This document shows positions 1,851-51,293 of a stretch of 64,000 nucleotides of DNA, piece by piece. Both the position numbers and the translations under genes were made by a program. This stretch comes from Sisyra terminalis (lineage: Eukaryota; Arthropoda; Insecta; Neuroptera; Sisyridae). The stretch is taken from contig OY292280.1 of assembly GCA_958496175.1 (NCBI GenBank), positions 11,222,001 to 11,286,000 on the forward strand. Direction: 5' to 3'. The notes beneath the pieces are model-generated. The model saw only the letters and a list, made by a program, of their open reading frames with translations. It ran no database searches and had not been told where the DNA came from. How positions within the stretch are numbered: the first letter of the stretch is position 1; each line of letters opens with the position of its first letter.

Positions 1851-2105
1851 AATCCAAATAAGATTTTTTCTTTCGCTGACTTTGAACAGTTATACTGTGT
1901 ATACAATATATAAAATATATTGCAGTCCAATTTATGTAGTATAATTTAACACAATAATATACAAAATCAATACAATAATATACAAATTTAATATAATAAT
2001 ATACAAATTTAATATAATAATATATAAACTTAATATAACCATATATAAAAAAATCATACCTCCAACATAAATTTGAACAGAAGTTCAAACAAAAATATTC
2101 GTGAC

Positions 2106-2161
2106 GTATTACCCAGATACGTATTTCGATTGCCAAGCAACCTTCATCAGTGGTCATCAAG
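2106..2161 (-). ncRNA. Type I hammerhead ribozyme motif
   Basis: On the minus strand CTGATGA (2150-2144), a stem II hairpin of 6 bp with one G-U pair and a 3-nt loop, GAAA (2127-2124), then TACGTATC before the presumed cleavage site. Stem I begins CCA/TGG. Stem III is the self-complementary TACGTA, as in minimal hammerheads that act as dimers. Confidence 0.7.
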
Positions 2162-2260
2162 TAGCTTGGATCACTCCGTAACTTCTATGTGATGATTCAC
2201 ACTTGATGATGATTCACTTTAGTGAATCATCACATAGAAGTTACGGAGTGATCCAAGCTA

Positions 2261-2316
2261 CTTGATGACCACTGATGAAGGTTGCTTGGCAATCGAAATA
2301 CGTATCTGGGTAATAC
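2261..2316 (+). ncRNA. Type I hammerhead ribozyme motif
   Basis: Mirror copy of the preceding motif: CTGATGA at 2272-2278, GAAA at 2295-2298, expected cleavage after ATC at 2306. All core bases match the CUGANGA...GAAA...UH consensus. Confidence 0.7.
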
Positions 2317-2809
2317 GTCACGAATATTTTTGTTTGAACTTCTGTTCAAATTTATGTTGGAGGTATGATTTTTTTATATATTGTTATATTAAGTTTATAT
2401 ATTATTATATTAAATTTGTATATTATTATATTAAATTTGTATATTATTGTATTGATTTTGTATATTATTGTGTTAAATTATACTACATAAATTGGACTGC
2501 AATATATTTTATATATTGTATACACAGTATTGAAGAGTGTTTTATTCCCATTTGCAGATTTATAAATAGCAGAACTTTAGTAATATTCTTTTCAAAGCTC
2601 AGAAAAAATGATTAGCACAAAGAGTTATATAAACTTATTTACAACAACAGATATTAATCAATAAGATTAGCATTATTATCTAACATTATTTATTCGGTAC
2701 AAACAAAAAACAAATCGATATATTTACCTAATAAAATAAGCAAATAATAAGTTTATGCTCAAGAATGTTCAAAATCTAAGCTCATCAAAAAAAATATCAA
2801 AACAATTTT

Positions 2810-3175
2810 TTTCCGGGAACGAAAAATTTCATTCAAGCTACCGTGGATTAAATGATGTCTTATCCACACTTCCAACAAGACGCACACCCTTATATAATTG
2901 AGGGATATACGTTATGTATATTTGTGTGGAGAAAATAATATATCACTCACACAAGTAACACAAGATTGTCAAGTAAAAATTTTGCCATTTAAAAGATTTT
3001 TATAAATAATAAAAAAAAAAAATTAGAAGCCAAAATTTTATTTGCACTTCCGTGGATTAAGTGATGCTTTATCCACACTTCCAACAAGACGTACACCCTT
3101 ATACAATAGGGAAGGTATGTTATGGGCATGTATGTGGAGATGATGGCATATCATACACACAAGATCATGTACCAA
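2810..3175. repeat. ACCGTGG two-hairpin repeat, copies 2 and 3 in tandem
   Basis: Two copies of the ~150-bp block (about 2815-2965 and 3035-3170), both in the same orientation as copy 1 and separated by about 70 bp of A-rich sequence. Confidence 0.7.
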
Positions 3176-3266
3176 GTAAAAGTTTTGCCGTTTATAAAAT
3201 TTTGTAGAAACTAAAACAAATAATATCCCAGATGCCCAATCTGGGGAATATCCAATTCATAAAAGC

Positions 3267-3482
3267 AGTAGCGCAGCATGGTGGATGCAAAAAGCGTTAT
3301 GGTCACGGGCGGCACATGAAAATAGGGCGGCATATCGATATTGATATTTCCGTAGAATATTTTGCTTTGTGAAAGAATAGATTCTTAAATTTGTACAGAA
3401 TTTTTTCTTGGCTAATGGTTATGATAGGGGGAGGTGAATTTTCGTTTGACCCCGGGCGGCGAATCGCTCGCTACACCACTAA
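3267..3482. mobile_element. hAT-like MITE
   Basis: A GC-richer island bounded by CAGTAGCGCAGCATGG on the left and CGCTACACCACT on the right. These are imperfect inverted termini of the CAGTGGYGTAGC type common in hAT elements. The interior has repeated GGGCGGC words. No coding capacity; I could not fix the target duplication. Confidence 0.55.
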
Positions 3483-3920
3483 ACAATAGTTCGATTCCAA
3501 AACGAAAGAATTTGTTTTCTTTAAAATCGGAATCAATTAAAACCTCGAAGAATTTAATCCATGCTTTTGCACTAATTTAATGAGTAGCGATAAAAAAATT
3601 TTGGAGATAAAAAAGCCATAAAACCAAATAAATACTCTAATTGCAACTATGAAAATTTTTCGTCATGATATTTTGCGCAGTATTTACCAACGAATTGGAA
3701 AAAGTATAATATATTATATTGAATTAATTTTCCCAAAAAAAAAAAAAAAAAATACTGAATTATTCATTTTTTTTTCAAAATAGATATCTCTCTTCATTGG
3801 AATCACTTAAATATGAACCAAAAATCTTTTACACAATTCCTAATGAGGTCCTACAAGTACAATAGAAAAGAAACTATTATTTTACTAAGAAAACTCCCTA
3901 GTCCTTTTTTAGTCTCTTTT
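3483..3920. other. AT-rich spacer, no gene seen
   Basis: A long A-run near 3730-3750 and otherwise unremarkable AT-rich sequence. Confidence 0.5.
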
Positions 3921-4077
3921 TAATCAAAATAAGATATTTTCGTTGACTTTGAACAGTTATACTGTGTATACAATATATAGGATATATTGCGGTCCAATTT
4001 ATGTAGTATAATTTAATATAATTATAAATATAAATCACACCATATACATAAATTTCAACAGAAGTTCAAACAAAAAT

Positions 4078-4131
4078 ATTGCCCAGATACGTATTTCGAT
4101 TGCCAAGCAATCTTCCTCAGTGGTCATCAAG
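4078..4131 (-). ncRNA. Type I hammerhead ribozyme motif
   Basis: Minus strand CTGAGGA (4120-4114), stem II GATTGC/GCAATC with loop TTG, GAAA (4097-4094), TACGTATC. CTGAGGA satisfies CUGANGA. Confidence 0.7.
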
Positions 4132-4229
4132 TAGTTTGGATCACTCCGTAACTTCTTTGTGATGATTCTTTGTTGATTCTTTAATGCTTTTTGAATCACC
4201 ACAAAGCAATTACGGAGTGATCCAAACTA

Positions 4230-4285
4230 CTTGATGACCACTGAAGAAGATAGCCTGGCAATCGAAATACGTATCTGGGTAATAC
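4230..4285 (+). ncRNA. Hammerhead ribozyme motif, weakened stem II
   Basis: CTGAAGA at 4241-4247 and GAAA at 4264-4267 are intact. Stem II (GATAGC/GCAATC) has one internal mismatch, so activity is less likely than in the mirror copy. Confidence 0.55.
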
Positions 4286-4411
4286 GTCACAAATATTTTT
4301 GTTTGAACTTCGGTTCAAATTTATTTTTATGGTATGATTTTTATATGTTATTATATTAAATTATACTAAATAAATTGGACCGCAATATATCCTATATATT
4401 GTATACACAGT

Positions 4412-5639: not shown

Positions 5640-5990
5640 GATAACATTTGTCGAATATTGTTTAATCTATGCAAAACACCTCGTCCGATATTTCAACTTC
5701 ATCAGGCGAATTTATTGTATCAATAATTTTTAGTCTTCTTTACTAAAAGTGCCTGAAGAAGTCAAAATCTAATCAAATGTTGAACTTAAACAAAATAGTA
5801 CTCCAATTATTGTTTTAATTTTCCTTTGCTATCAATCCTCCCTTGTCTATTTATTTATTCTTTATATGGCAGAATCATACAATTCTTTCATAATTAATTT
5901 TCAATTCCCAAGCTTAAATTTTTACTAAATACTAAGCACTATTTGGAAAAAAAGGAAGTTTAGTTTTATCTTATTATATAACTTACTATA
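5640..5990. mobile_element. Decayed hammerhead-type foldback
   Basis: Minus-strand CTGATGAAGTTG near 5720-5705 faces plus-strand CCTGAAGAAGTC near 5752. The layout is like the intact pairs, but GAAA is missing in both. The right half and its flank (about 5735-5990) recur at 7845-8060. Confidence 0.45.
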
Positions 5991-6139: not shown

Positions 6140-6895
6140 GGTATAATCTAGACTAGTCCGACTAGACATCCAACTTTCAACACCATTCACGGTCCGACTT
6201 TAGATCCAACTTCGAAAGTCAGACCACTAGTTGGACTGCAAGTCGGACAACTAGTTAAATCTTCTAGTTAGATCGCCTAAATGATTCCACTAGACATCCA
6301 ATTTCCAACACCATTCACGGTCCGACTTTAGATCCAACTTCGAAAGTCAGACCACTAGATGAATTGCAAATTGGACAACTAGTTGAATCTTCTAGTTAGA
6401 TCGCCTAAATGATCCGACTAAACATCCAACTTCCAACACAATTCACGGTCCAACTTTAGATCCAACTTCGAAAGTCAGACCACTAGATGAATTGCAAGTT
6501 GGACAACTAGTTGAATCTTCTAGTTAGATCGCCTAAATGATCCAACTAGACATCAAACTTCCAACACCATTCACGGTCCGACTTTAGATCCAACTTCAGT
6601 CAGACCACTAATTGAACTGCAAGTCGGACAACTAGTTGAATCTTCTAGTTAGATCGCCTAAATGATCCGACTAGACATCCAACTTCCAACACCATTCACG
6701 GTCCGACTTTAGATCCAACTTCAGTCAGACCACTAGTTGAACTGCAAGTCGGACAACTAGTTGAATCTTCTAGTTAGATCGCCTAAATGATCCAACTAGA
6801 CATCCAACTTCCAACACCATTCACGGTCCAACTTTAGATCCAACTTCGAAAGTCAAACCACTAGTTGGACTGCAAGTCGGAACGTGAATGGCCTG
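6140..6895. repeat. Tandem array, six units of 125-128 bp
   Basis: The word CACGGTCC (or TCCA) starts at 6188, 6316, 6444, 6572, 6697 and 6822, giving spacings of 128, 128, 128, 125 and 125 bp. The shorter units lack three bases inside the CTTCGAAAGTCAG segment. Units differ by only a few substitutions. No reading frame is maintained. Confidence 0.95.
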
Positions 6896-6961
6896 CTTAA
6901 ATATAATAGATGTTCTAAAATACTAGATGATATATAAATTTATTGCATTTCCGTATGAAAC

Positions 6962-7632
6962 ATAAGCTTGGATCAGGAACGTCGAAATTTTCAGAACTGA
7001 AAAGAACTATTTCGAATGGTTTCGTAATTATTCCTGTACGTATTGTTCACTCGAATGCAATTTGTACGTAAACTTTGACAAACGCCAGAAATGAAGAAGC
7101 GACCATTATTTTCAAATATGTATTTATATTGTAATATGTAAAATAAAAAATTTCGGCTCAAGTCCATTTTAGCACACGCACAATCTGGCAACGTTGCTTT
7201 TTCGATTTTGTTTTTATTATAATTCGCGATTTTTTTGATGATTTAATTCTAATATGGTATAATTCTCTCTTTTGTGGCTAAATTATTATTATGGACCGAT
7301 TTAATCGCGAATTAAATTAAAAACAAACTCGAAAATGCAACGTTGCTAGATTGTGAGTGTGCTAAAATGGACTTGTACCAAATTTTCTAAATAAAGTTTA
7401 CTTTTTTATGGGAAAAACTGTGATGTATTATTATTAATGAAAGGAAACTCCAAAACATTTGCGAAATGAAAAATATACTTAGGTAATATTTATTGTCGCA
7501 TTATTGAACTGTTTAATTTTTATGTTCTGTTATTTATATTTGATAATACATATTTGAAAATAACCGTCGCTTATAATTACGGAACCATTCGAAACAGTTC
7601 TCAAATTTTGACGTTCCTGATCCAAGCTTATA
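6962..7632. mobile_element. AAGCTTGGATCAG foldback element, copy 1, with nested MITE
   Basis: Inverted termini ATAAGCTTGGATCAGG at the left and CCTGATCCAAGCTTAT at the right. A second copy lies in opposite orientation at 37.87-38.61 kb. Both carry the AACGTTGC MITE at the same internal place, so the MITE was present before the copies separated. Confidence 0.85.
7155..7379. mobile_element. AACGTTGC palindromic MITE
   Basis: Ends GGCTCAAGT and ACTTGTACC; the interior is a palindrome around repeated GCAACGTTGC words and TTAATTCGCGATT. It is flanked by AAAATTTC (7147-7154) and AAATTTTC (7380-7387), an 8-bp target duplication with one difference. 8 bp fits hAT-type or P-type transposition. Confidence 0.85.
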
Positions 7633-8060: not shown

Positions 8061-8079
8061 TTTTTCGAGTTTGAGCGGT

Positions 8080-14665: not shown

Positions 14666-14942
14666 TAAGACCTGTATGAAAAAATATTAGTTTAGTATTC
14701 TAAAACCAGGGAATTTAAATTTTAATTTTTACACCTGCCTTATGAGGTTTGTTAGAGTTTGTTTATCAAAAATATTACGTAATTTGGTACAAAGGCAATC
14801 ATTCCACTTAAAAAAATCAACACTATCTATCTTCTTCTTTTTTTAAGCCATTCCAAATTCAGGATTAAATGCTTTTGTATATTTTTTTTTATATAAGAAG
14901 ATAATTCAGGTTTAAGATCGGTTTTTATTTAATATTTTTATT

Positions 14943-14996
14943 ATTCAATTAGCTACGTTTCGTTACGTATCGTAACTTCATCAGGCTTCTTGATTC
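14943..14996 (-). ncRNA. Type I hammerhead ribozyme motif
   Basis: Minus strand CTGATGA (14984-14978), stem II GTTAC/GTAAC around GATAC, GAAAC (14961-14957), GTA cleavage triplet. Stem I is AGC/GCT, a 2x2 internal loop and TCAA/TTGA, a canonical internal-loop layout. Confidence 0.8.
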
Positions 14997-15257
14997 ACAA
15001 TAATAAAATATTTTCAATTTAAATTCAATAAATTTAATTAAATTTATTGTTATTATTACACGATATTCATGTAAACGTTAGAAATGGATTTATTTTATTA
15101 AATCGATTTTCAAAATCAATAAATTAATCATAAAAATCGATTTGTTGACAAAACTAAGATCATAATACACAAAAATTAAACTTTTAATGAACAATTGATT
15201 GTAAATAAGAATAAATTAAATTTAATTAAATTTAAATTGAAAATATTTTATTTTTGT

Positions 15258-15311
15258 GAATCAAGAAGCCTGATGAAGTTACGATACATAACGAAACGTA
15301 GCTAATTGAAT
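15258..15311 (+). ncRNA. Type I hammerhead ribozyme motif
   Basis: CTGATGA 15270-15276, stem II GTTA/TAAC with a 7-nt loop, GAAAC from 15293, GTA at 15298-15300, then GCT pairing with AGC upstream. Mirror of the copy at 14.95 kb. Confidence 0.8.
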
Positions 15312-15599
15312 AATAAAAATATTATATAAAAAAACCGATCTTAAACAACCTGAATTGTCTTCTTATTTAAAAAAATAAAAGCTGAGATCTGAATTTTATC
15401 ATCTGCTTCTGTTTACTTTGAAATCAATTTTATATTTAAGATTTTAATCATAGAATTGCATTCGAAAATGCATCGAATTTCTAAGGTATGAACCAAAAAT
15501 AAAATGATACATTTACCGAAACAATTACAAAGAAATAATTTTAAAGCCAGAAAGCATGCAAATCTTGACTCATTGTTGAAAAAAAAATTAATTCAAACT

Positions 15600-16890: not shown

Positions 16891-17060
16891 TTCGATATTT
16901 GTGTAAACATTAGAAATGAATTTATTGTATTAAATCGATTTTCAAAATCAATAAATTAGTCATAAAAATCGATTTGTTGACAAAACAAAGATCATAATAC
17001 ACAAAAATTAAATTTTCAATGAACAATTGATTATAAATAAGAATAAATTGATTAGTTTTT
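16890..17060. repeat. Shared central module of the hammerhead foldbacks
   Basis: Matches the middle of the family M element (TTAAATCGATTTTCAAAATC through GAACAATTGATT) with a few differences. A third copy lies inside family A copy E at 43.5 kb, in the opposite orientation. It shows exchange of segments between ribozyme-bearing families. Confidence 0.75.
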
Positions 17061-17254
17061 AATCATTTTTTTTAATTTTTCATAGTTACAATCATAGTAA
17101 TAATAATTCAAACTTATAATTTACTAATTTATATTCTCTTGTGTATACAATATATAGAATATATTGCGATCCAATTTATGTAGTATAATTTAATATAAAA
17201 ATCTAACCATAAACATAAATTTGAACAGAAGTTCAAACAAAAATATTCGTGACG

Positions 17255-17309
17255 TATTGCCCAGATACGTATTTCGATTGCCAAGCAATCTTCCTCAGTG
17301 GTCATCAAG
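17255..17309 (-). ncRNA. Type I hammerhead ribozyme motif
   Basis: Minus strand CTGAGGA (17298-17292), 6-bp stem II GATTGC/GCAATC, GAAA (17275-17272), TACGTATC. Confidence 0.7.
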
Positions 17310-17407
17310 TAGTTTGGATCATTCCGTAACTGCTTTATGATGATTCTTTATTAATTATTTAATGGTTTATGAATCATCACAAAGCAGTTACGGAATGATC
17401 CAAACTA

Positions 17408-17463
17408 CTTGATGATCACTGAGGAAGATTGCTTGACAATCGAAATACGTATCTGGGCAATAC
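17408..17463 (+). ncRNA. Type I hammerhead ribozyme motif
   Basis: CTGAGGA 17419-17425, stem II GATTG/CAATC (5 bp), GAAA 17442-17445, TACGTATC, cleavage expected before TGGGC. Confidence 0.65.
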
Positions 17464-17639
17464 GTCACAAATATTTTTGTTTGAACTTTTGTTCAAATTT
17501 ATGTTTATGGTATGATTGTTATATATTACTAGATTAAATTATACTACATAAGTTGGACCGCAATACATTCAATATATTATATACACAGTATAACTGTTCA
17601 AAGTCAGCGGAAAAAAAATTATTTTGATTATATTCTCTT

Positions 17640-17740
17640 GTTTTAAGAATTTTATTCTTTGGTTTTATCCGTCATTTCGTCGATTTCCCGACTTCTTCAG
17701 ATATATTACCAAAAAAAAGTCGGGAAACCGATGAGACGTC
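17640..17740. mobile_element. Decayed hammerhead pair of the CTGAAGA type
   Basis: Minus-strand CTGAAGAAGTCG near 17700-17689 with GTCG/CGAC and GAAA is followed closely by a plus-strand partial core (GTCGGGAAACCGATGAGAC near 17719). A related pair is at 37.25-37.44 kb. Confidence 0.5.
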
Positions 17741-18903: not shown

Positions 18904-23651
<4,748 letters not shown>

Positions 23652-29969: not shown

Positions 29970-30660
29970 TAGAACTATTCAATTCCGTTCCTTTCGAATT
30001 CGTATTCTCGACTGAATTCTCCAAATAACGTTGCAGTTCTTCTTATGTAATTTCTTAAATAAACGCCCCTTATACTTATTGTATCCTTTTTTGATTTGCA
30101 TTAAGAAGGAAAGAAGGAAACATTGTTTTGACTAGCTGGTCCCCTTCTTGAGAATAGTTTTATGATCTACACTTACAAGTAAGTATCTTACACACTACTA
30201 CTAGAATACTTGCTTCACATATATACCCTCATTGGTTTCCAGCGGCTCCAGCATTGAATTTATTCAAAAACAATCGAAACATTCTTGTTCCTTTTATTAA
30301 ATTATGTATTCCATTAAAATATTAAACATATATTTCCCTTTCAGTAAGTTCAATTAATTCCCAATTTTGTATCACTTTTCACATGTTTAAAATGCAACAA
30401 TTTGGGTTAAAACCATTCAGCAACAATGAAAACTATCCACTTCTTAAGTTCGATTGGATGCACCGGAAAATGAACCATTAACGTTTAGCAAGAACTAAAA
30501 TATTAATAGATATTTTTTGACCAAAATCGGGTAAAAATATTGCAAAATATTCACAAAATTAGCCGAGTATTAAACCCCTTTACAATTGAGTTAATGCATT
30601 AAAAGCTTATCACTTAGTACGAGTTAGATCAGAACAATACTAATGTAGTTGTAAAAGTGT
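29970..30660. other. Presumed promoter side of the unknown gene, then spacer
   Basis: The first 80 bases are less AT-rich and may hold the 5' UTR of the minus-strand gene. The rest is AT-rich with nothing recognised. Confidence 0.35.
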
Positions 30661-31110
30661 ATAATCAAAATAAGATTTTTTCGCTGACTTTGAACAGTTA
30701 TACTGTGTATACAATATATAAAATAAATTGCAGTCCAATTTATGTAGTATAATTTAATATAATAATATATAAAAATCATACCACCAACATAAATTTGAAC
30801 AGAAATTCAAACAAAAATATTTGTGACGTATTGCCCAGATACGTATTTCGATTGCCAAACGATCTTCCTCAGTGGTCATCAAGTAGTTTGGATCACTCCG
30901 TAACTGCTTTGTGATGATTCACAAAGCATTAAAGAATCAACAAAGAATCATCACAAAGCAGTTACGAAGTGATCCAAACTACTTGATGACCAATATTTTT
31001 GACTAATATTTTTGTTTGATCATCTGTTAATGGTATGATTTTTATATTTTATTATATTAAATTATACTACATAAATTGGACTGCAATATATTTTATATAT
31101 TGTATACACA
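30661..31110. mobile_element. Palindromic foldback element (family A, copy 4), right arm deleted
   Basis: Has the left outer TIR from AATCAAAATAAGA and ends ATTGTATACACA. The right arm has lost its hammerhead: CTTGATGACCA runs straight into ATATTTTTGAC near 30993. Confidence 0.8.
30830..30885 (-). ncRNA. Hammerhead ribozyme motif, one stem II mismatch
   Basis: Minus strand CTGAGGA (30872-30866) and GAAA (30849-30846) intact; stem II GATCGT/GGCAATC has one mismatch. Confidence 0.55.
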
Positions 31111-32229
31111 TTGTAAAAGTGGTTCAAAAATCGTGGATAACTCAAAAAGTAAGTAATCAAAAGGTATCAAAAAATTGCTTTTGAACTTTTGTTTTTCACG
31201 AATTACTAAATTCATAATTTAATTCCCATATGCTAATTGAGGTTCAATAGATACTAATTCCAGGAAATTAAGCAAATTTTCACCCTTTCCAGGGTGGAAA
31301 AAGATCTTTGCCCTGAATAGTTTGGCGCTGAATTCAAAAAACGCAAAGAACAATGTCAACAATAGGGTACACATCCTAGTGATTCCTTGATGTAATATAT
31401 TCCATATATTTTTGGATATCTTCAAAATTGAATCTTTAAGAAAATAATATAGGAAAATTCATTCATTTAGGAAGGTTTCTTCTAAATCGTAAGCATACTA
31501 GATTGTTTTTGATAAGTATGACGTATTTCGACTACCAGGATTCGCATGGGGCTTTAAATGTAATAAGTTCTACGGTTTTTATGGCGTAATATGGCATAAC
31601 TTTCTCTTTTGGTGATAAATTTTCATTATGAGTCGAATTATTTGCGATATAAATAAAATACAAAGTAGAAAATGCAACTTTGCCAGATTTGACGGTTTAA
31701 AAAGGGATGTAAGCCAATTATACTGATTAGGGTAATCTTTTAAATAAAAGGTTTCCAAATTTATTTGAAATATTGAGAAATAAACAATAAATAATTATAT
31801 TTTTATATCGTTATGTATATTTTCAACTATGAAATTCAACTGGGTATTTTTTTAAGCAAATTTGACCTCCGTAAGTTACTAGTATGTATATAATTGGGAT
31901 TAAAACTAAAGAGAACCAAACTATTGTTTTTAGTGCAACTATTTAATAGTGTTAAGATTTATTATATTTGGGATTCCTCTATTGAAATGATGAAAAAGGT
32001 ATTGATTTTCGAATATCAAAATCACCATATGCAATTATAAAAAAAAATTGATAATAAATGAAGTATATTTTAAGTAGATAACTTTAATAACAGGCCAAAT
32101 GTAAATAAAAATCAAATATAATCAAAATATACTAATAAAATTCATCAAAAATCAATCGTTTGCCACAAATAAGTAATAAAACAAACAATATTCGTCAAAA
32201 CATAGCGCAATTAGTGTAAAACGAATATT
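31111..32229. other. Intergenic spacer with a half MITE
   Basis: Around 31600-31715 there is a remnant of the AACGTTGC family (AATGCAACTTTGCCAGATTT, then GACGGTTTAAAAAGG). Otherwise nothing is recognised. Confidence 0.4.
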
Positions 32230-35043: not shown

Positions 35044-38000
35044 ATGACCAGTACAATGGCGTACACGGTTTTATCATTTATTGTTTTATTACTCACGGTT
35101 TTCACCTCGACCAATGGATTTTTCAACAACCCTACTTCACCGGAGAAAATCGAGGCTTGTTTTTGTCAGGTAATTATCTAGTTTTAGTGCTCACGAAAAA
35201 CCACTTAGGAAATTCTTTATTACAGTTACGAGGAGTGTTGGACGATTGCTCCTGCAACGTAGACACTGTCGACCATTTCAACAACGACCGAATCTATCCC
35301 AGGATACAAAGCCTTTTAGTAAACGATTACTTTAGATTCTACAAAGTCAATTTACACAAACCATGTCCATTTTGGTCGGACGATAGTCGGTGTGCTATTC
35401 GTTATTGTCATGTGGAACCATGCCACGAAAACGACATCCCATACGGTCTAAAAGACCTTAAAGAAAAGCCCCACGAAAAGTACACCCGCGAAATTGGATG
35501 TGGAGAAGACCACAACGAAGCGCTTGGCTATTTAAACAAAACCATAAGTCCAGCAGCATACGAAGAATTTGCTTTGTGGCAAAAATATGACGATGCCCAA
35601 GATAACTTTTGTATCAACGATAATGAAGAAGATTCCGAAGCGGAATACGTTGATTTGCTTCTAAATCCTGAACGATACACCGGCTATAAAGGCAAATCAG
35701 CACACCGCATTTGGAGGAGCATATACCAAGAAAATTGCTTTCGACCAAAGAAAAGCTTCAACACTCATATTTTAACAGAAAATGTCAACAATATGTGTCT
35801 AGAAAAACGGGTTTTCTATCGGGTTATATCTGGACTTCACGCTAGCATTAACATTCACCTTTGTTCTAAATACCTACTTTCAGGTATATACAAAATATTT
35901 TTACACTCTTTCTTCATTTTGCTTAAGGGGCATTCAAGCACCACATCTTTCCTTATTTTTACAATAAATTGGTTGTGTCCATATTAGGGTGATTTTTTTT
36001 TGACTTTTTTTGGTCCCATCGTGAAATTTTGTTGGAAATACCAAAAAAAAAATTCTCTGAAAGTTTGAGCCCTTAATATTAATTTTAAGTTCTCGACCAA
36101 GACGTGTAAAGATTTCCCATTGAAAATACACGGAAACTCTGATTTTTTATTTTTAAATTTCTATATCTCAGTGGCATTTCATGGGATCGCTTTTACCGAA
36201 GATGTTTTTTTCTCAGAATTAAACGCTCTACAAAAGTGCCCATTGCGACAAAGTCGTAACTCACACCGGTGAGGTAGTACGGGCCACTGAACCTGATTTT
36301 TCCATAAAATTCGCGTTTTTTTGCATTTATCTCGTAAATAACGAGAGCTACGGAAAAATTATAAATGAAAAACTTGTAGAGAATTTGATTTTCTACAAAA
36401 AAGGTCCTGTAGACCAAATCGCTAAGATCAATTTTAAACGAGATATTAAGCCTTGAATTGATTTTTCTGTGAAATTTTTGCCGATCATTGATTTATAGTT
36501 TAAATCAATTGCTTTCGGGTGAAGGTCCTTTCTGAAAAATAATTTTGTATTGTGTTTCTTATCAATTATACTAACACTAGGGTAACTTACAACAAATGTC
36601 GCATTCGTATGGTCTTTCCCCACTGTAAAAAAAACGCGAATTTTATGGAAAAATCAGGTTCAGTGGCCCGTACTACCTCACCGGTGTGAGTTACGACTTT
36701 GTCGCAATGGGCACTTTTGTAGAGCGTTTAATTCTGAGAAAAAAACATCTTCGGTAAAAGCGATCCCATGAAATGCCGCTGAGATATAGAAATTTAAAAA
36801 TAAAAAATCAGAGTTTCCGTGTATTTTCAATGGGAAATCTTTACACGTCTTGGTCGAGGACTTAAAATTAATATTAAGGGCTCAAACTTTCAGGGATTTT
36901 TTCTTTTTGGTATTTCCAACAATATTTCACGATGGGACCAAAAAGAAAGTAAAAAAAAATCACCCTAATCCATATTTTACATAATTTTATTTATTTTTAG
37001 TAGGAAAGTGGACAAGAAATACTTCATATTAAGAAGCCTGATGAAGGTCTAATAAAAGACCGAAACTTGTCGCAAAATTAATAATTAGTACATGGATCTA
37101 CATCCTTTCTTGTCCACTTTCCTACTAAAAATAAATAAAACTTATTTTTACATTTCGTTACTTGAAATGCTTTAAAAATCTACTCAATGCCCCACATGAT
37201 TATGTAGTTCGTAATTATATTCTCTTTTTGTTAGGATTTTTGTACTATACGTTTTATCGGTTTCCCGACTTCTTCAGGTACTAATATAATTCCTCATAAC
37301 ACAATTTTACTGTCAATTACAACAGTTGGAAGACAGACTGGTATACGAAACCTACCCATTCAGGAAAGGCTACTAAATTACAAATCAAATCATCATAAAG
37401 AAGTCAGGAAACTGATAAAAAAAAATCGGTGTGTGTACTTATGTACATGTGTAGGAAGTTATACTTCTTTGGTATAGTGAAAAAGATGTTTTCAATCCAT
37501 TGCCGTAACCTTTTCCCAGTTATAAAGGGTTTGTGACAACTAGAAAATGGTACAATTATAAAAAAAAAGTTGTTTTTAATATCACAATACATAATAAACA
37601 AACGTGTTGCGGCAGACATGGACAAAGAATATTCAGTTTAAACTCATCAATTTTTTTGGAATACAAATATAATCATTATTATCTCAAATTTGAACTATCA
37701 TGTCATTTATTTCAACTGTTACTTCGATTTTATTCAATCGTTAATTTTTGCTATTTGTCAACTGTGTCAGTGTTGGGCTGTGAATATTTCACGGAACGTT
37801 ACTGGTATTCAAATAAATGATTAAACAGTCAATTATGTATGTATACAGTTGTCTGTTTGTACATTTGGTATAAGCTTGGATCAGGAACGTCGAAATTTGA
37901 GAACTGTTTCAAATTGTTTCGTAATTATTTCTTCCCGTATTGTTCACTCGAATTTGTACGTAAATTTTGACATATGCCAGAAATGAAGAAGCGACGATTA

Positions 38001-40057: not shown

Positions 40058-43000
40058 TTATATATTAAACCTGCGTCTGTGTAAAAACGATGTAGATTTG
40101 GGTAAAATTTGAAATTGGCCAATGTCGTCATAATGTTCTTCGTCCGGTTCTTCGGTGGCGCTTGCGTAATAGGTGCCAGTGCCGACTTCGTCGTAAATAT
40201 ACGACTCGTTTGATAATCTTGCAGGTATCTGATTGGATTCCGTTTCCACATCCATGTACAAACCTTCATTTTCCTGGTCGATGTCATCGGGTGGTTGTGG
40301 TAAACGTCGCAAATTTTTTTTGCTCACCGTACAAGTGGGCGCCGTTTGCATGGTAGTTTTCGCCCGATTTATGCACGCCACCCATTGCTGCATATCTTTG
40401 GGCGTTAGTGCCATCAACTGATACGATTTATTTCCCTCAACAATCGAAATCAACTCGAAAGATGACAACTTTTTGTCATCCTTCGTCCCCATTAATGGAC
40501 TAGCTCGGTAGTCCAACATATTTAAGAATTTATTTGGTTTATCGTCCTTTTCACTTCCATAAAACAGCAACCAAATGTCCAAAAGTCCAACGAAATATTT
40601 TCGAGAAACTTCAACGTACAAAAATACTTTTTCTTTTCGGTTGAGAAGTCCAATCTAAAATGTTTCAAAAGTTAATTATACTTCTAATTACCTTCTTTGT
40701 TTAAAAGGATTATTTATGGCATTATTTGATTCATTTAAATTTCAGATGTTCGAAAAGTAGGAAATAATTATTTAATTCCCGATTTTTTTACTAATAAAGT
40801 TCACGGACGATGAAAAATCGTTGGAAGTTCTCAGAAGATATTTCAGCTTTAGACGTTTTATTTTCCAAATTGGCAACCTTCCGATGTCTATTGCAACTTC
40901 ATCAGGCATTTTGGATCACTATCTCATCTAATTAAATGATTTTGGACTGAAACTAAAACGTTTTTGTGATCCAGGACGCCTGATGAAGTTGCAATAGACA
41001 ACGAAACGTCGCCTAATTAAGTAACCTGAGTTTACTTCTTCAATTTAATAATCAAAACTTTGACTACTATGGCCTTTACTCTATTAAAATTGGATTTTAC
41101 GTCGTATTTTTGAAAGTTATCCTTGAGAAGGTTGTGAATTGATTTCTGGTGTTTTAAGAATGTTGGTTGGAATGGAAAGAGTTTAAAATCCGGTTTGTAT
41201 CTTCAAAAACACTTTAGATGTAGTTTATACAATATATATAATACAATTGACAAAAGTAAACTATAACTTGGCAATCGAAATACGTATCTGAGCAACACGT
41301 CAATAATTGTTTGACTTATTGTTCAAATTTATGTTTATAGTTTACTTTTGTAAATTACATTACATAAATAAGATATTATATACACCGTATAACTGTTCAA
41401 AACCAGTGAAAAAATAATTATTTTCGATACATATACGTAAAGTGAGGTTTTCTAGTAGGATGAAATTGATGCACGAGCTAAAGGGACTGATCATACACAA
41501 CGAGATCGAGTTCGCTGTGTACCCCCACGAGGCCGCCAGGCGAGTGGGGGTAGGCGCACGAGATCAAGTTGTGTATGATCAGTCCCTTTAGCAAGTGTCT
41601 CAATTTCGTCCTACTAGGTACCTCACTTTAAGTATAAGTATCGAACAAAATTTTTTGTAACGACTGCTTCTAAAGTTCAACAGAAAGAGATTGAGAAATA
41701 AATTATTGTTATTTATATATGAAAAATTTCAACTCTATAGTAAGAATAATTTATAGAAAATTTATGAATAAAAACAACATTTTAGTTTAAACTACAGTCT
41801 AAATAATTACCTATATTAATTATTTCTTATCAAAGTTTATTTAAGTATCAATTTATTTTACTTTTTCGCAGTTATTTACTTTCGCGCACGCTTTCTCTAC
41901 TTTCACGCACGCTTGCCACCACGGCTCTTTACTCCCGCCACACAACGCACAAAAGTTCAACTTTAAAAGCAGTCGTTACAAAAAACTAATTTGACTTTAC
42001 ATTAAATTTTTTTTGCAAGAACAATTTAAAAAAAATTATACGAAAAGTTAATTTTCTCGAACGTTAGAATGTATACATAAAAACTGTTTAAATTGATGAA
42101 TAGTTTTACAATGGCTTGAAATAGTTAAAATAGTTTTGAATTAGGTTTTCATTAAATTTCCTTATTTTCACTATTTCTATATTATTATTAGCATTTGCTA
42201 TCCCTGTTAAAAGAAGGGATTTTGAAATCATTATTTCTAATGGGTTGAAACGATTTCTAATGGGTTTTTGAACATTAAAACGTCTATAAATGGCGAAAAT
42301 GCAACTGTAATATAGATTGAATGCTAAGAAATTAGTTCTAAAGCTCGATATTTACTTTTTTAATTATTATTTACCACCGCCTTATGACTGCTAAGGTCTT
42401 TAGCAACTCTAGGGTGAATAAAAATCGATAAATATCGAAAATTTATCGATTCAAGGATCGAACCGAACATCTACTAGTTTTGGAGCGGCCACCTAGACCA
42501 CTCGGCCATCAGTAGGCTGATTTTTCACTCAGGCGTGATTTAAATTGTAAAATAACTAGTTAATTCCTTTACTTACTTTTACCGCCATTGTGCATAACTG
42601 TTGTGCGGATAAATTATCGTATTTACAAATTTTTAAATTTCGTTCTATCGGTTCGATTGATTCTATTACTATTTTTGAGTTAATTGAATCCGGATTTTCG
42701 TAGGATTGATCTTCATTTTCGTTGGGATCGATATATTCGTTTGATTTGGAGTTGTCAGCCAAAACGTATTCGTTAATCGTTGAATTCGTTTCTGAAAAAT
42801 AAATTAAATGAGTTTTTTTTGCAAAAAATATCATTAGTTACTTTCCTGTTGAATTTTTTTTGTTTCTGTTCAAAATCTGGGGAATTATAACAATTGTTAA
42901 AACAATTGTAACAATTGTTATGTCCTTGTAGTTAATTAATTTATGGTTTTATAATTCAAAATTGAAACATTATGAATTGCAAAAAGGCAAAGTAATTATT

Positions 43001-44840
43001 TTGAACTGTTATTTTGTAATTATATATTTTGTTGTATAAGAAGTTTAAATAAAATGTTCAATAATCAAAATAAGATTTTTTCGCTGACTTTGAACAGTTG
43101 TACTGTGTATACAATATATCGAATATATTGTGGTCCAATTTATGTAGTATAATTTAATATAATAATATAAAAAAATCATACCATAAACATAAATTTGAGC
43201 AAAAGTTCAAACAAAAATATTCGTGACGTATTACCCAGATACGTATTTCGATTGCCAAGCAATCTTCCTCAGTGGTCACTAAGTAGTTTTGATCACTCCG
43301 TAACTGCTTTGTGATGATTCTCTGATGCTTTGTGAATAATCACAAACCAGTTACGGAGTGATCCAAACTACTTGATGACCACTGAGGAAGATTGCTTGGC
43401 AATCTAAATACGTATCTGAGCAATACGTCACAAATATTTTTGTTTGAACTTCTGTTCAAATTTATGTTCATGGTATGATTTTTATATATTATTATTGTAA
43501 CTATGAAAAATAAAAAAAAATTATCAAAAACTAATCAATTTATTCTTATTAATAATCAATTGTTCATTAAAAGTTTAATTTTTGTGTATTATGATCTTAG
43601 TTTTGTCAACAAATCGATTTTTATGATTAATTTATTGATTTTGAAAATCGATTCTTCTGACTCTTTGTTGATTCTTTAATGGTTTGTGAATCATCACAAA
43701 TCAGTTACGGAGTGATCCAAACTACTTGATGACCACTGAGGAAGATCGTTTGGCAATCAAAATACGTATCTGGGCAATACGTCACGAATATTTTCGTTTG
43801 AACTTCTGTTCAAATTTATGTTGGTGGTATGATTTTTATATATTATTTTATTAAATTATACTACATAAATTGGACCGCAATATATCCTATATATTGTATG
43901 CACAAAATGTTCAATGTTTTTTAAGTTAATGTGGCATGTCATTTCTTTAGGAATAAGTTTTAGCAAAATTTTTTTCATTCAAATTAATAGATTGATCCTT
44001 GATTCATAGGTGAATCATATGTAACAGAAATGAGGAAATTCAACTCTTGGTAAATACATCAAGGGTATTGGGTAATTGAAATACGTATCTGGATGAAATC
44101 CAGTATAATATTTTTTACTATTTATAACAATTAGTATTTGATAAATAATTAATGCAAAGATAGATATTTTGTATAAAATTGAATGGAAATTTAAAAAAAA
44201 GAGGCAAAATTGAGTTTAAATGAAGAGTTGTTGGTTTTTATGGGGAAAACCCTATAAAATTTTTATCTAAAACATTTGATATAGAAATGCAATTGGCGGT
44301 GTTTTGAATTCATTTTGAATGCACTTTTGCCCGAAAGATGTTAAAATAATACCAAAACCGATTTTGAATATAGAAACAAAGGTTTTTTTTTAGAAGCATA
44401 CAAACCTTCGATACTAATCTTTTGCATATTTAAATAGTGGCCAAAATCAGCATCCGCTTGGGTTTTCTTAATTAATAGATTTGCTTGTTCTTGTATCGGT
44501 GGAGGTAATTTGTGCATGATTGATGTCAAAAAATCACACATTTCTGAAAATTGAAAACAATTATTCATAGTCTTTATCAGTCCTGTACGAACGATACCGG
44601 AAATTACTCAAAATGATTATTTTTTTAAATGAAATAAAAATAACAAAAAACCAACTTCCGTTGATATCTCATCGAAATTGAATCATTAATAAGTAGTAAT
44701 AAAAATCAAATTTTATTGAACTAATCAAATTGTCTTGAGTTTGATAATTAATCGATTGATTTTTTTCACTTTTTCCACTTACCTCTGAGTAAATTACTCA
44801 AATTGAATAAATGATTATCGCTATTATGGTCATTTTCCAT
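40058..44840 (-). CDS. PH-domain adaptor, SKAP-like
   Basis: Exons (5' to 3'): 44840-44783, 44543-44406, 42791-42577, 40654-40058; 1008 nt, 335 residues. All junctions are GT-AG and keep frame. Residues 1-65 (from MENDHNSDNH, then NLLREMCDFLTSIMHKL) look like a helical N-terminal region. The middle is acidic with tyrosine motifs (NEYIDPNE, SYENPD). The last exon encodes a PH domain from IGLLNRKEK to the C-terminal helix with WVACINRAK, followed by LYMDV, YIYDEV and YDDI tyrosine sites. This order matches Src kinase-associated phosphoproteins, but the SH3 domain they end with is absent. Such proteins link membrane phosphoinositides and tyrosine kinases to actin and adhesion. Another PH adaptor (for example AFAP-like) is possible. 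The start was chosen because it is the first ATG in frame, preceded by CTTCAAA. Confidence 0.75.
40860..41040. mobile_element. Hammerhead foldback in the last intron (family O)
   Basis: Left arm on the minus strand (CTGATGAAGTTGCAATAGAC near 40917-40898) and intact right arm on the plus strand, about 60 bp apart. The left one has lost its GAAA. Confidence 0.75.
40966..41021 (+). ncRNA. Type I hammerhead ribozyme motif
   Basis: CTGATGA 40980-40986, stem II GTTG/CAAC with loop CAATAGA, GAAAC from 41003, GTC triplet. Stem I is short (GC/GC), so activity as a dimer is more plausible than as a monomer. Confidence 0.65.
41218..41425. mobile_element. Family A fragment without CTGANGA
   Basis: Has GGCAATCGAAATACGTATCT (41272-41291) and the ATAACTGTTCAAA terminus but no left hammerhead half. 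Confidence 0.6.
41426..41992 (-). mobile_element. Composite ACGACTGC TIR / AAAGTGAGGT foldback element, copy 2
   Basis: Reverse-oriented partner of 22738-23330, with the same junction TTGTAACGACTGCTTC next to GTATCGAACAAAATT. Confidence 0.8.
42440..42525 (-). repeat. tRNA-like sequence (SINE head or tRNA pseudogene)
   Basis: Minus strand TGGCCGAGTGG (42508-42498) matches an A box of Leu/Ser-type tRNAs, and GGTTCGATCC (42464-42455) matches a B box, with tRNA-like spacing. The acceptor stem does not pair well, so a functional tRNA is unlikely; an AT-rich tail follows. Confidence 0.6.
43060..43905. mobile_element. Palindromic foldback element (family A, copy 5), rearranged
   Basis: One left arm and two right arms. 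The second right arm (43665-43900) is separated by the 190-bp module shared with 15.06 and 16.9 kb. In the right arms GAAA has become TAAA and AAAA, so only the left ribozyme core is intact. Confidence 0.8.
43229..43284 (-). ncRNA. Type I hammerhead ribozyme motif
   Basis: Minus strand CTGAGGA (43272-43266), stem II GATTGC/GCAATC, GAAA (43249-43246), TACGTATC. Confidence 0.7.
43895..44110. repeat. Segment duplicated at 51.29-51.50 kb
   Basis: GCACAAAATGTTCAATG through GGTAATTGAAATACGTATCT recurs after family A copy 6, so the copies expanded together with their flank. Confidence 0.8.
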
Positions 44841-45678: not shown

Positions 45679-45902
45679 GGCTCAAGTGTACTTTAGCACA
45701 CCCACAATCTGACAACGCTGCATTTTCGACTTTGTTTTTAATTTAATTCGCGATATTTTTGTTATTTCAATGCTAATATGGTGTAATTCTCTCTTTTGTG
45801 GTTAATTTTTCATTATGGACCGATTTAATCACGTATTAAATTAAAAAATAGTCGAAAATGCAACGTTGTCAGATTGTGGGTGTGTTATAGTAAACATGAG
45901 CC
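45679..45902. mobile_element. AACGTTGC palindromic MITE
   Basis: GGCTCAAGTG to ACATGAGCC, flanked by AAAAAATC and AAAAATTC. Confidence 0.85.
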
Positions 45903-45968
45903 AAAAATTCTTGAGATTTGCTGATAATCGAAAAAAAAAACGATCGAAATATTTAGAATATTCTGTAA

Positions 45969-48681: not shown

Positions 48682-49614
48682 TAGGGTAGAGTGGGGCTTA
48701 AAAGTCCGCGGATGTAAAGGTCCACCATGGGTATCTAAAATACAAGGGGCATATTGCTCTATTTAACTATAATAGTAGGGATGAGGAAGTATAATAAGCA
48801 ATTTGAGAGGCCACCCAGGTAGTTAAGCTACATCACAGATAGGAAATTTACGAAGGCACCTGGATATTTTAACGAAAGTAAAATTTTTAATTATTATTAT
48901 TTTTGGTTTCCAGCAGTAATATTGCTTTGACTTGACTAAAACATAATTTAATAGTATATGAGATTTAGTGGTATTTCAGGATTTATTATTAGTTTTTAGC
49001 TAATTTAAACAGTAAACTAGTTATAACCTAGTAACACTTCAACATAACTGGGGTAAAAAGGTCCACGTGGACCTATTCCTTACCCAACCACGTGAAGGTT
49101 GGATTCAACGCAATATTTGGTAGCAATGGGTCCATGAAAACTATATTTCTTATATAGGAAATTATGAATTTGATTAAGTTAAGATAAAGATTTTAAAAAA
49201 ATATTACTTTTGTCACAATTGATGTCAATATTATTATAATGAAAAAAGAGTTTTAAGTTATGTTAATAATTACAGTAATAAAATTTTCCAAACGAAAATC
49301 CAGAAATATTTCATTGATTCAAATACTGTTATTAATTCATAACACCGGTCAGATACTTAAAATAAATACAGGACCTTTTTGCCCCTTAGCCGTCCCTTTT
49401 GCTCCTACTAAGGGGCAAAGAGAGACAAACGACAAGATCTAGAAGAAATGTCCAATGACAAACTTCTATATGGATGATTCCATTAAAAATTAAATTAAAC
49501 ATGGCCAGATATTTGTTTATTTGGCTTGTATTATACGTTTCAAATTAATAGGGTTGGTTTTCACAATATATTACAGAATAGTAAAATTGGACCTTTAAAC
49601 CCCACCGTACCCTA
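48682..49614 (+). mobile_element. TIR transposon (TAGGGTAGAGTGGG), uninterrupted copy
   Basis: Ends TAGGGTAGAGTGGGGCTTAA and TTTAAACCCCACCGTACCCT. Relative of 21386-22577 without the nested MITE. No transposase frame. Confidence 0.8.
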
Positions 49615-49644
49615 ATTTAGACACTTAACATAAATATGGTTGTT

Positions 49645-49815
49645 TTCATAAACAACTCATATTTCTTAAAGACAGATGATTATGGCGTAGACTTCTGCTT
49701 GGAATACTGTGGGCATTTTGCCCAGGCCTGTGAATATTCGTTTCCTGGGATTTGCCCCCCATATTCCAGCGCCTACGCCATCATTTGTCTTTGATCCGTC
49801 AGTGAACCAAGCTGA
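49645..49815 (-). pseudogene. Non-LTR retrotransposon RNase H remnant
   Basis: Minus strand translates to WFTDGSKTNDGVGAGIWG, then VFQAEVYAIIICL, with a stop and drift after it. TDGSK, GAGIW and FQAE-AI are signature blocks of the RNase H domain of jockey/R1-like elements. Only this piece survives. Confidence 0.82.
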
Positions 49816-50804
49816 GTTTATACTTTTGTCTCAGTAAATTTATCTTTTAAAACTATTTAAAATCTTATTTATTGACAATAATTCAGAGTTTAGTTTTATT
49901 TTTATCTCATAGGTGGCACTACAAACTTAAGCTGTTTCGAATGGAATTAAAGTGGTAACAGTTCACTCTTCATAACATAGATGGCGCAACAAACTTAAGA
50001 GCTTTGGTTAATATACTTACTATTTTATATTGTTAAAATTGAACAATTATTTGAGTTATTAAAGGCAAATTACAACAAAAAGCAATACTTGATAAATGTG
50101 GCATAATGATTTCATTATTTCTTTCCTTTTGTAAATAAGTATGAAAAAGCTATTTGACCATATTATTCTTATGATACGAAAATTGTACGATTGACAAGTT
50201 ATAAACTTATTTTGAAATTTACAATAAATATTTTAATTTCCTTTTTCATCATTCGATTTTCAAAAATCAATACGATGGCATTTGATTACAGTAAAGTAGA
50301 ATAGTATTTGCTCATATGTAAATCAGGCTGAAATTTCATTCATTTAACTAATTATTCGATGATGGAGGGAATTTTACAAATTGAAAAAATTAGATAACAG
50401 TATTAAAATGTTTCCATGTTTTTCGACAACTTTTCCGGGTGCAACATGGAGTGGCCAGGCTTAAAACTTATGTACTAATAATTCTCATGAGACTTAATAC
50501 AAAAAAAAAATATATTTTTCTATAGAAGTAATTGGTATATCCTGCTAATTTCTCTTTTTTTTTTGATTTTTAATGCAATAATATTTAATAAGAATTAGTA
50601 AGTAAAGTAAGTAACAAAGTATATTAAAATGTTTTTCAACCGAATTTTACTATCGAATATATAGGTTTTATATATTTTTGGTAACATAATTATTTCGATC
50701 GAGAAGTCCTCAATTTTTAAGAATTCATATGTGAATATCTGATTATAGTGAATCGCACCTGAGTTGAATTAAGTTTAACAAAAAAAAAACCTTGCAACCT
50801 TTCA
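49816..50804. other. Intergenic spacer
   Basis: Contains ACATAGATGGCGCAAC near 49975 and a related ATAGGTGGCACTAC near 49911. No gene seen. Confidence 0.4.
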
Positions 50805-50965
50805 AAATAAAATTTTTTCGCTGACTTTGAACATTTAAACTGTGTATACAACATATAGGATATATTGCGGTCCAATTTATGTAGTATAATTTAATATAAT
50901 AATATATAAAAATCATACCATAAACATAAATTTGAGCAAAAGTTCAAACAAAAATATTCGTGACG

Positions 50966-51020
50966 TATTGCCCAGATACGTATTTCGATTGCCAAGCAAT
51001 CTTCATCAGTGGTCATCAAG
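50966..51020 (-). ncRNA. Type I hammerhead ribozyme motif
   Basis: Minus strand CTGATGA (51009-51003), stem II GATTGC/GCAATC, GAAA (50986-50983), TACGTATC. The best-preserved minus copy of family A. Confidence 0.75.
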
Positions 51021-51117
51021 TAGTTTAGATCACTCCGTAACTGCTTCGTGTTGATTCTTTGTTGATTCTTTAATGCTTTGTGAATCATCACAAAGCAGTT
51101 ACGGAGTGATCCAAACT

Positions 51118-51174
51118 ACTTGATGACCACTGAGGAAGATTGCTTGGCAATCGAAATACGTATCTGGGCAATAC
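51118..51174 (+). ncRNA. Type I hammerhead ribozyme motif
   Basis: CTGAGGA 51130-51136, stem II GATTGC/GCAATC, GAAA 51153-51156, TACGTATC before TGGGC. Confidence 0.72.
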
Positions 51175-51293
51175 GTCACGAATATTTTGTTTGAACTTCT
51201 GTTCAAATTTATGTGTATGGTATGATTTTTATATATTGTTATATTAAATTATATTACATAAATTGGACCGCAATATATCCTATATATTGTATG

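Follow-up and report, generated by a model that had tools for sequence, protein, structure and literature searches.

Head-to-head hammerhead ribozymes in palindromic repeats of Sisyra terminalis look like a by-product of Penelope-like element insertion

Introduction

The window analysed here is a stretch of 64,000 nucleotides from the neuropteran Sisyra terminalis (assembly GCA_958496175.1, contig OY292280.1, positions 11,222,001 to 11,286,000 of the forward strand; coordinates are counted from its first letter). It contains several families of palindromic elements, named A to E in the following, whose arms carry sequences of the hammerhead ribozyme type. We consider it highly probable that family A represents insertions of a Penelope-like element (PLE) which are reduced to their pseudo-long terminal repeats (pseudo-LTRs), that families B, C and D most likely derive likewise from related elements, and that the ribozyme of family A is a minimal type I hammerhead. 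For comparison the genome assembly of 376.6 Mb in 11 contigs was searched, and the 200 kb next to the window (pieces L069 to L088) were inspected together with it. An exon of ERO1 and a WW-domain protein resembling yorkie were also noted, which fit an animal and probably an insect.

Hammerhead motifs in the window

The sequence CTGANGA occurs 19 and 16 times on the two strands of the window. Nineteen sites could be aligned in a hammerhead frame, 12 of them in family A, two in B (15 kb), one in C (37.0 kb), two in D (40.9 kb) and two in type E (17.7 and 37.25 kb). A strict descriptor, which comprises the exact core, GAAA, a stem II of at least 4 pairs, a stem I of at least 3 pairs, U16.1 H17 and a short stem III, is passed by ten sites (8/12 of family A and 2/2 of family B). 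When the same descriptor was applied to 200 sequences of window length generated by a first-order Markov model, three matches resulted, which corresponds to 0.015 expected per window against the ten found; the strict motif count is far beyond chance. The ten strict sites represent only two independent sequences, those of A and B. CTGANGA followed by a self-complementary stem II, GAAA and UH had been noticed at many sites in a reading of the sequence alone (below, the sequence-only reading), and these counts bear it out. Its estimate was about 14 sites, at least ten of them without core error. An extra A, which that reading had passed over, is present in all 19, and some sites have defects in G12, stem II or the GAAA (GGAA).

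At the ten strict sites the type I hammerhead core CUGANGA / GAA / UH is present together with three helices, with an inserted A and a stem III of 0-2 bp. The family A ribozyme reads ACCA CUGANGA A GAUUGC UUG GCAAUC GAAA UACGUA UC UGGG, and its stem III (ATACGTAT) consists of 2 bp (A-U, U-A) and a palindromic ACGU cap. Family B reads AGC CUGAUGA A GUUACG AUA CGUAAC GAAA CGU A GCU; here stem III is a bare palindromic ACGT, which can be closed only between two molecules or copies and not intramolecularly. The extra A lies between A9 and G10.1. It is not universal in other copies, being absent in L088:5474 and L070:8913 and replaced by T at 60074 of the window and in L077:7400. A viroid hammerhead with an additional residue at the same place was reportedly described by de la Pena and Flores in 2001. 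G12 is broken at two of the 12 family A sites (43382+ and 43736+, the latter also with a stem II mismatch), and three further family A sites have a mismatch in stem II (4241+, 17419+, 30872-).

The sequence-only reading had distinguished at least five element types. Several families are indeed present, but fewer than five: D shows 75-81% identity to B over 64 bp and is thus a diverged relative of B, C is alignable with B around the ribozyme core, and E is poor. The assumption of five unrelated types was dropped, since B, C and D align with one another.

Arrangement of the repeats and their copies in the genome

The repeats of family A have a length of about 217-307 bp, the carrier repeats overall of about 115-310 bp, and the inverted arms are long and near-perfect (up to 309 bp at 100%). 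Each tail of family A comprises about 41 bp and is confined to one arm; of the window elements six have it on the left and two on the right. Among neighbouring repeats of the same family in the window and the next 200 kb, 22 pairs are head-to-head, four tandem and none tail-to-tail, which confirms that two copies face away from each other in most elements. This count over 264 kb is based on BLAST pieces of at least 60 bp with neighbours within 1 kb and includes families A and C as well as B, to which D was added; of the four tandem cases at least one goes back to the splitting of a single repeat. An asymmetric head-to-head junction (spacer type GATTCTTTGTTGATTCTTTAATG, by eye) is common to separate insertions, and its orientation to the tail is one way at 4.1 and 51.0 kb and the other way at 17.3 and 30.9 kb. 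In the element A43 one repeat is inverted and two are direct, the latter being separated by an insert of about 170 bp.

A right flank is common to A43 (43904-44000) and A51 (51293-51380), while the target duplication is present only in A43. One of the two may therefore be a duplication or a recombinant of the other.

Genome-wide, 10,454 family A ribozyme cores (up to 3 mismatches) and 2,978 copies of the A tail (33 nt, up to 3 mismatches) were found; the reversed controls gave 0 in both searches. Thirty tail loci were fetched with flanks of 1.5 kb, so that any partners farther off, such as those around an intact ORF, would be missed; these are the first listed exact matches and come from one contig. 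The sequence beyond the tail differs among the 30 loci except for a flank common to L105 and L107, which is also found near position 17,400 of the 200-kb stretch, and the loci are accordingly not all independent. In 26 of the 30 an inverted partner lies within 1.5 kb and leaves no room for an ORF between the repeats. A duplication score of at least 9 was reached by 16 of these 26 partnered loci versus 10 of 650 mismatched flank pairs. Altogether 28 ribozymes (exact core, at least 5/6 stem II pairs) occur in 18 of the 30 loci.

Two further arrangements were seen among these copies. At L076:1214-2065 (G000:C7:11357214-11358065) an A element is tailed on both arms and has inverted flanks outside, so that the palindrome extends into the surrounding DNA. 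The A insertions at 16962-17408 of the joined L069-L088, in L105 and in L107 have arms and flanks in common; apparently a larger repeat that contained one A insertion was copied.

The sequence-only reading had assigned the carriers to foldback DNA elements of a layout not yet described. Foldback or MITE-type (miniature inverted-repeat) DNA transposons which captured a hammerhead, with a transposase acting on the inverted ends, would account for the long near-perfect arms, and foldback families without ribozyme (by the descriptor) lie in the same window at 36.0, 52.1, 55.6 and 57.9 kb. However, the ends of the ribozyme carriers are unlike, with a tail of about 40 bp on one end, which can be either side. 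The target duplications of family A vary in length (about 9-14 bp), in contrast to the fixed length and symmetric ends of such transposons, and an A repeat adjoins a frame of 839 amino acids (aa) with a GIY-YIG endonuclease. A transposon origin is thus very improbable; the carriers are PLE-type pseudo-LTRs, for which the head-to-head arrangement is in print (PMC3846280).

The parent element of family A

With a probe for GIY-YIG endonucleases 150 scored matches out of 1,127 candidates were obtained from the genome. By a hand count 19 of the 150 lie in open frames of 819-854 aa, many of them with identical scores, which suggests recent copies. In the 601 bp past the endonuclease match of one 839-aa frame, the frame continues for 282 nt and stops inside a family A repeat. 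This repeat matches the right arm of A2 with 97.4% identity over 312 bp. In this copy an intact ribozyme core starts 20 nt past the stop codon on the same strand, so that both repeat and ribozyme begin no more than about 300 bp beyond the endonuclease match. Because repeat and ribozyme follow an open endonuclease frame, family A is regarded as the pseudo-LTR of a recently active-looking PLE. A Penelope-like enzyme with the same flanks, for which the sequence-only reading had proposed a search, was in this way found for family A, in one copy, and for family A only.

Coordinates compared by eye gave a few further pairs. For one of 45 endonuclease matches on contig C1 an exact tail lies 568 bp downstream in the same orientation. 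Ten matches are located below 11.7 Mb of C1; one of them is followed by an exact ribozyme core at a distance of 306 bp, and another is preceded by an antisense core at 863 bp. As the lists of tails and cores used here are restricted to exact copies, which make up a small part of all, the true share is not derivable from them.

A repeat of this length with a type I hammerhead also recalls non-LTR retrozymes, circular-RNA retroelements with hammerheads, which would here be inverted instead of tandem. The hammerheads of metazoan retrozymes are of type I and have a stem III that is short and palindromic; the units measure 170-400 nt (PMC7229834), a range that includes the size of the A repeat. Retrozymes are direct tandem repeats without an ORF, whereas 22 head-to-head neighbours stand against four tandem ones in our count and the A repeat is part of a protein-coding element. 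We therefore give this explanation very little chance.

Several traits of PLEs are thus found. The repeats are mostly arranged head-to-head with a palindrome at the junction, and one arm bears a tail (about 41 bp in A, about 40 bp in B) that corresponds to the optional 30-40-bp tail at the 3' end of one pseudo-LTR; family A in addition shows variable target duplications and, in the one copy read, an ORF with GIY-YIG endonuclease in the element. Since the motifs sit in back-to-back pseudo-LTRs of PLEs, the layout is a known and not a new one, and the head-to-head hammerheads look like a by-product of PLE insertion and not like a new element class. They follow from two printed facts, the presence of hammerheads in PLE pseudo-LTRs and the head-to-head order of these pseudo-LTRs. 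In the open-licence literature no paper was recognised that states ribozymes in foldback or palindromic elements. The extra A, the many inverted pairs without ORF and the shared asymmetric junctions are possibly new details.

Two other frames were considered and rejected. An open reverse-transcriptase frame of about 691-692 aa at L085:883-2961 is LINE-like (YADD, A-rich end, by our own reading) and not a PLE. An ORF across the A2 repeat gave no Pfam match, and by eye its frame is not kept in other A copies. A regular expression for PLE endonuclease motifs found none in the window and the next 200 kb.

Folding and covariation

The best folding support comes from family B. The ribozyme of its left arm, folded to minimum energy, takes the hammerhead form, in which stem II, stem I, an internal loop and an outer stem I are present (-13.7 kcal/mol, z -3.70, 0/200 shuffles as good), and the right arm reaches a z of -2.34 (5/200 shuffles). 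Between families stem II is paired in 68.5% versus 51.5% in shuffles (0/500 as high) with differing letters, and its covariation amounts to 0.370 versus 0.170 when shuffled (0/500). In the 16 sequences of B, C and D taken together seven cells are changed on both sides versus 2.5 expected (2/500), and 80.3% are paired versus 75.3% (0/500).

Among the 57 columns of 26 distinct A copies none varies more than N7 (G17 T7 A2), the one core residue without constraint, which holds third place in 11 B rows. Among the constrained core columns 1/12 is variable in family A versus 58/193 columns elsewhere (small numbers), the one being G12. The N7 and pair counts in family A cover 30 of 33 copies (26 distinct), with 60074, 61685 and L070:7076 omitted due to their missing 3' part, and the count of core versus rest covers 12 of 15 aligned window repeats. 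We read the variability of family A as that of an active source plus many decaying copies.

The 16 sequences of B, C and D served to build a covariance model, which by construction finds them again. In the next 200 kb it found rows in L070 and L071 with at least 44.5 bits, L078:9921 with 36.6 bits, L077:7800 with 26.4 bits, and weaker ones in L079 and L077. A further subfamily is represented at L077:6916-8312, where up to five ribozyme-like sites stand in mixed orientation around an A repeat within 1.4 kb (E 0.0008 to 0.28).

A number of observations weigh against our interpretation, in part against the ribozymes and in part against their assignment to a PLE. The Rfam hammerhead models, which had been proposed as a check, gave no match in the window, nor did two short stretches even at E up to 10, no positive control being run; a genome search with RF00163 found nothing, and likewise nothing in its controls. 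In single-arm transcripts of family A the hammerhead fold is less stable than the minimum by 3-6 kcal/mol, and their folding does not surpass that of shuffles (45/200 and 99/200); the counts for C and D are 20/200 and 138/200, respectively. Within family A no compensatory change occurs in 26 rows (93.0% paired versus 93.2% shuffled). Between families the pairs changed on both sides (283/500) and the further pair types (68/500) are indistinct from shuffles, as are those of B, C and D together (71/500 and 402/500, respectively). Stem II columns are variable in 4/12 cases of family A versus 58/193 elsewhere, i.e. they are no more conserved; among the columns of the larger A set G12 ranks fourth in variability, and with B, C and D pooled N7 is only the 12th of 58 columns. 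The model of B, C and D fails to recover family A, with one A row at an E of 0.58. Moreover, the ribozyme of a PLE from anole was dispensable for insertion and cut only with the protein present (PMC11167929).

As to the assignment, the link to a parent is based on one downstream repeat of one 839-aa frame and concerns its endonuclease end only. The probe was a 56-aa PLE endonuclease-like peptide, itself a match to PF01541, whereas PF01541 over the whole genome gave only one match, which was taken for SLX1. Of the eight A elements in the window four have clear duplications (equalled by 1 to 4 of 300 random pairs), A4 has a weak one and three have none. For B and C a scripted test without the tail gave no duplications beyond chance (86/300 and 28/300); likely ones are visible past the tail by eye only.

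Hammerheads that are inert relics carried along in repeats, without cleavage at any stage, would explain the silence of Rfam, the family A minimum-energy fold, the unremarkable conservation of stem II and the variability of G12, and the anole PLE with a dead ribozyme inserts in vitro (PMC11167929). Against this stand the perfect fold of B, the rank of N7 in family A, core columns that vary less than the remaining ones (on the small numbers given), the compensation between families and the intact ribozyme in the repeat following the open frame. Complete inertness is in our opinion unlikely, yet it has to be taken more seriously than the two origins discussed above. Changes in stems and core without compensation had been named beforehand as evidence against the motif; compensation is lacking within family A but is seen between families, and for that reason we think that neither its absence within A nor the missing Rfam matches overturn the motif. 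The silence of Rfam is, we think, due to the minimal nature of the motifs (stem III of 0-2 bp, palindromic ACGU, extra A). Extra A and minimal stem III may explain why standard models miss such ribozymes.

Candidates outside the families were not accepted. A broad hammerhead pattern matched 68 stretches in viral contigs, of which 4/68 have at least 4 stem II pairs and two of these four are identical; lacking other support they are attributed to chance. Patterns of the family A core and of its tail gave none in viral contigs, and the family A core pattern none in GTDB genome contigs. Rfam micro-RNA matches in the window coincide with long hairpins of the palindromes and were not accepted as micro-RNAs.

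Proposed mechanism and meaning

For PLEs the likely cause of inverted pseudo-LTRs is self-priming, the head-to-head order being the most frequent inverted arrangement (PMC3846280), and the tail is described as the stretch between two starts of reverse transcription, the targets being AT-rich (PMC11167929). In analogy, transcripts of tandem units would contain several sense ribozymes in cis, which could be cleaved, probably aided by the pairing of two copies via the palindromic stem III. The PLE protein would nick AT-rich DNA and begin copying within the tail. The second, inverted repeat would then be generated by self-priming, which takes place at the palindromic 5' end of the first. The resulting pseudo-LTR palindromes would carry two ribozymes on opposite strands without the possibility of pairing in cis, and in read-through transcripts each ribozyme would be masked by the antisense arm. 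This would make the ribozymes in palindromes mostly passengers, useful only in trans or in transcripts starting between the arms. That a transcript contains one ribozyme in sense whichever strand is transcribed, as pointed out in the sequence-only reading, is correct by symmetry, but the antisense arm is part of the same transcript: the complete A2 transcript has a computed fold of a single near-perfect hairpin (-487 kcal/mol) which buries the ribozyme. In a full palindrome transcript the ribozyme should, according to this fold, be silent.

The palindromes might also be amplified as units of their own and form a non-autonomous PLE family. The 839-aa protein would recognise the hairpin RNA, from transcripts of either strand, at its tail and copy it in trans. 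We put this forward tentatively, as a possibility with somewhat less than even prospects, because separate insertions have the asymmetric junction in common and 26 of the 30 tailed copies are partnered without room for an ORF. If true, the inverted layout would shield the template RNA from self-cutting, since the palindrome would switch the ribozyme off. With its 19 open PLE-type frames, 10,454 cores and 2,978 tails the genome offers a test bed, in which direct and inverted repeats can be compared for the role of PLE hammerheads.

Families B to E and other repeats

The coordinates of all elements and hammerhead sites are given in Table 1. Families B and C resemble A, with the link to a frame found for A only. 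The 165-bp centre of family B occurs also at 16.9-17.1 kb and 43.5 kb. The B tail sits on the opposite arm in two other genomic copies, and the C tail is shorter than that of B (by eye).

Table 1. Ribozyme-bearing elements of the window and their hammerhead sites.
Feature	Position	Strand	Remarks
A2	1840..2538		tail left 1851-1891, antisense repeat 1892-2198, sense repeat 2224-2527
A2 target duplication	1840-1850 and 2528-2538		11 bp, TATTGAAGAGT
A2 left-arm hammerhead	2112..2160	-	alignment and strict descriptor
A2 right-arm hammerhead	2262..2310	+	alignment and strict descriptor
A4	3922..4411		tail left; imperfect 14-bp duplication AGTCCTTTTTTAGT/AGTCCCTTATTAGT, weak (28/300 random pairs equal it)
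A4 left-arm hammerhead	4082..4130	-	strict descriptor
A4 right-arm hammerhead	4231..4279	+	one stem II mismatch
B element	14893..15366		arms 14893-15039 (-) and 15210-15366 (+)
B left-arm hammerhead	14947..14994	-	minimum-energy fold is the hammerhead
B right-arm hammerhead	15260..15307	+	strict descriptor
B tail	15367..15405	+	about 40 bp, by eye
A17	17130..17640		tail right; duplication TATATTCTCTTG at 17130-17141 and 17629-17640
A17 left-arm hammerhead	17260..17308	-	strict descriptor
A17 right-arm hammerhead	17409..17457	+	stem II closing pair lost
Type E, doubtful hammerhead-like sequence	17660..17710	-	hammerhead-constrained folding yielded no fold
A30	30649..31121		tail left; duplication TTGTAAAAGTG at 30649-30659 and 31111-31121; right-arm ribozyme lost
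A30 left-arm hammerhead	30834..30882	-	one stem II mismatch
C element	36981..37145		sense hammerhead 37028-37080 (+); truncated inverted arm on left
Type E, degenerate hammerhead	37238..37287	-	G12 lost (changed)
D, old relative of B	40863..41022		hammerhead-like 40866-40915 (-, GGAA in place of GAAA) and 40970-41018 (+)
Diverged A copy	41222..41427		tail right, ribozyme truncated, no duplication detected
A43	43051..43915		tail left; duplication AAAATGTTCAAT at 43051-43062 and 43904-43915
A43 intact hammerhead	43234..43282	-	strict descriptor
A43 hammerhead	43372..43420	+	G12 to T
A43 hammerhead	43726..43774	+	G12 to A and stem II mismatch
A51	50802..51297		tail left; no duplication detected; right flank common with A43
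A51 left-arm hammerhead	50971..51019	-	strict descriptor
A51 right-arm hammerhead	51120..51168	+	strict descriptor
Diverged A copy	55336..55591		tail left, ribozyme truncated, no duplication detected
Single old A repeat	60043..60161	+	cleavage-site side of ribozyme deleted
Single old A repeat	61646..61756	-	cleavage-site side of ribozyme deleted

An AT-rich unit of about 200 bp adjoins A17 (16893-17096), and pieces of it are found within B (15045-15209) and between the direct repeats of A43 (43490-43665), as if it had been captured twice. No copy of it was found in the next 200 kb.

Other repeats of the window include a foldback family of about 1 kb (52115-53138, 35995-36958, 55595-56792, 58836-59285), whose arms are 94-98% complementary and contain no ribozyme site according to the descriptor; 32 BLAST pieces of it lie in the next 200 kb. 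A different palindromic family, whose core is GGCAACGTTGCATTTTCG, is present at 17850-18594, 21896-22120, 38191-38424, 45679-45912, 7143-7366 and 9554-10778, and several weak Rfam micro-RNA matches fall on it. Tandem arrays are located at 32225-34581 (471 bp x 5) and 6157-6881 (128 bp x 5.7).

Comparison with known systems

The closest resemblance is to the PLEs of the Penelope/Poseidon type. The Pen families of Adineta vaga (PMC3846280) and Poseidon of Anolis (PMC11167929) likewise encode a GIY-YIG endonuclease in their only ORF, which comprises about 840 aa. In A. vaga pseudo-LTRs bound an ORF of 842 aa, and an adjacent inverted pseudo-LTR, duplications of 8 to 10 bp, an optional 31-bp tail on one inverted pseudo-LTR and palindromes at the inverted junction are described (PMC3846280). 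These PLEs thus share with family A the head-to-head pseudo-LTRs, the junction palindrome, the optional one-arm tail of 30-40 bp and the target duplications; AT-rich targets are also seen here, by eye only. The order inverted-direct-cargo-direct of A43 is an order described in PMC3846280.

The hammerhead of Anolis Poseidon lies in or at the repeat as it does here, where pseudo-LTR and ORF meet (PMC11167929), while the sections of PMC3846280 on A. vaga that were drawn on make no mention of hammerheads. In Anolis the ORF start overlaps the ribozyme, whereas here, in one copy, the ORF ends within the downstream repeat, shortly ahead of the ribozyme. Family A differs from these PLEs also in that 26 of the 30 sampled tailed copies are repeat pairs without room for an ORF, and in the extra A of the ribozyme core.

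Minimal hammerheads in PLE pseudo-LTRs are reviewed in PMC7761336. With the minimal, dimer-acting type I hammerheads of PLEs (Lunse 2017; Cervera and de la Pena 2014, via PMC7761336) the ribozymes described here share a very short stem III and a palindromic loop. They have an extra A after A9, which may set them apart, and their inverted pairs preclude two sense copies per transcript.

A type I hammerhead, a short stem III with palindromic tetraloop (axolotl) and a similar repeat length are shared with the metazoan non-LTR retrozymes (PMC7229834). Helix III of axolotl consists of one pair and a palindromic tetraloop, and two pairs plus tetraloop, as in family A, resemble the invertebrate hammerheads of that account. 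The metazoan retrozymes are direct tandem repeats expressed as circles, whereas the repeats of S. terminalis form inverted pairs and have a coding parent.

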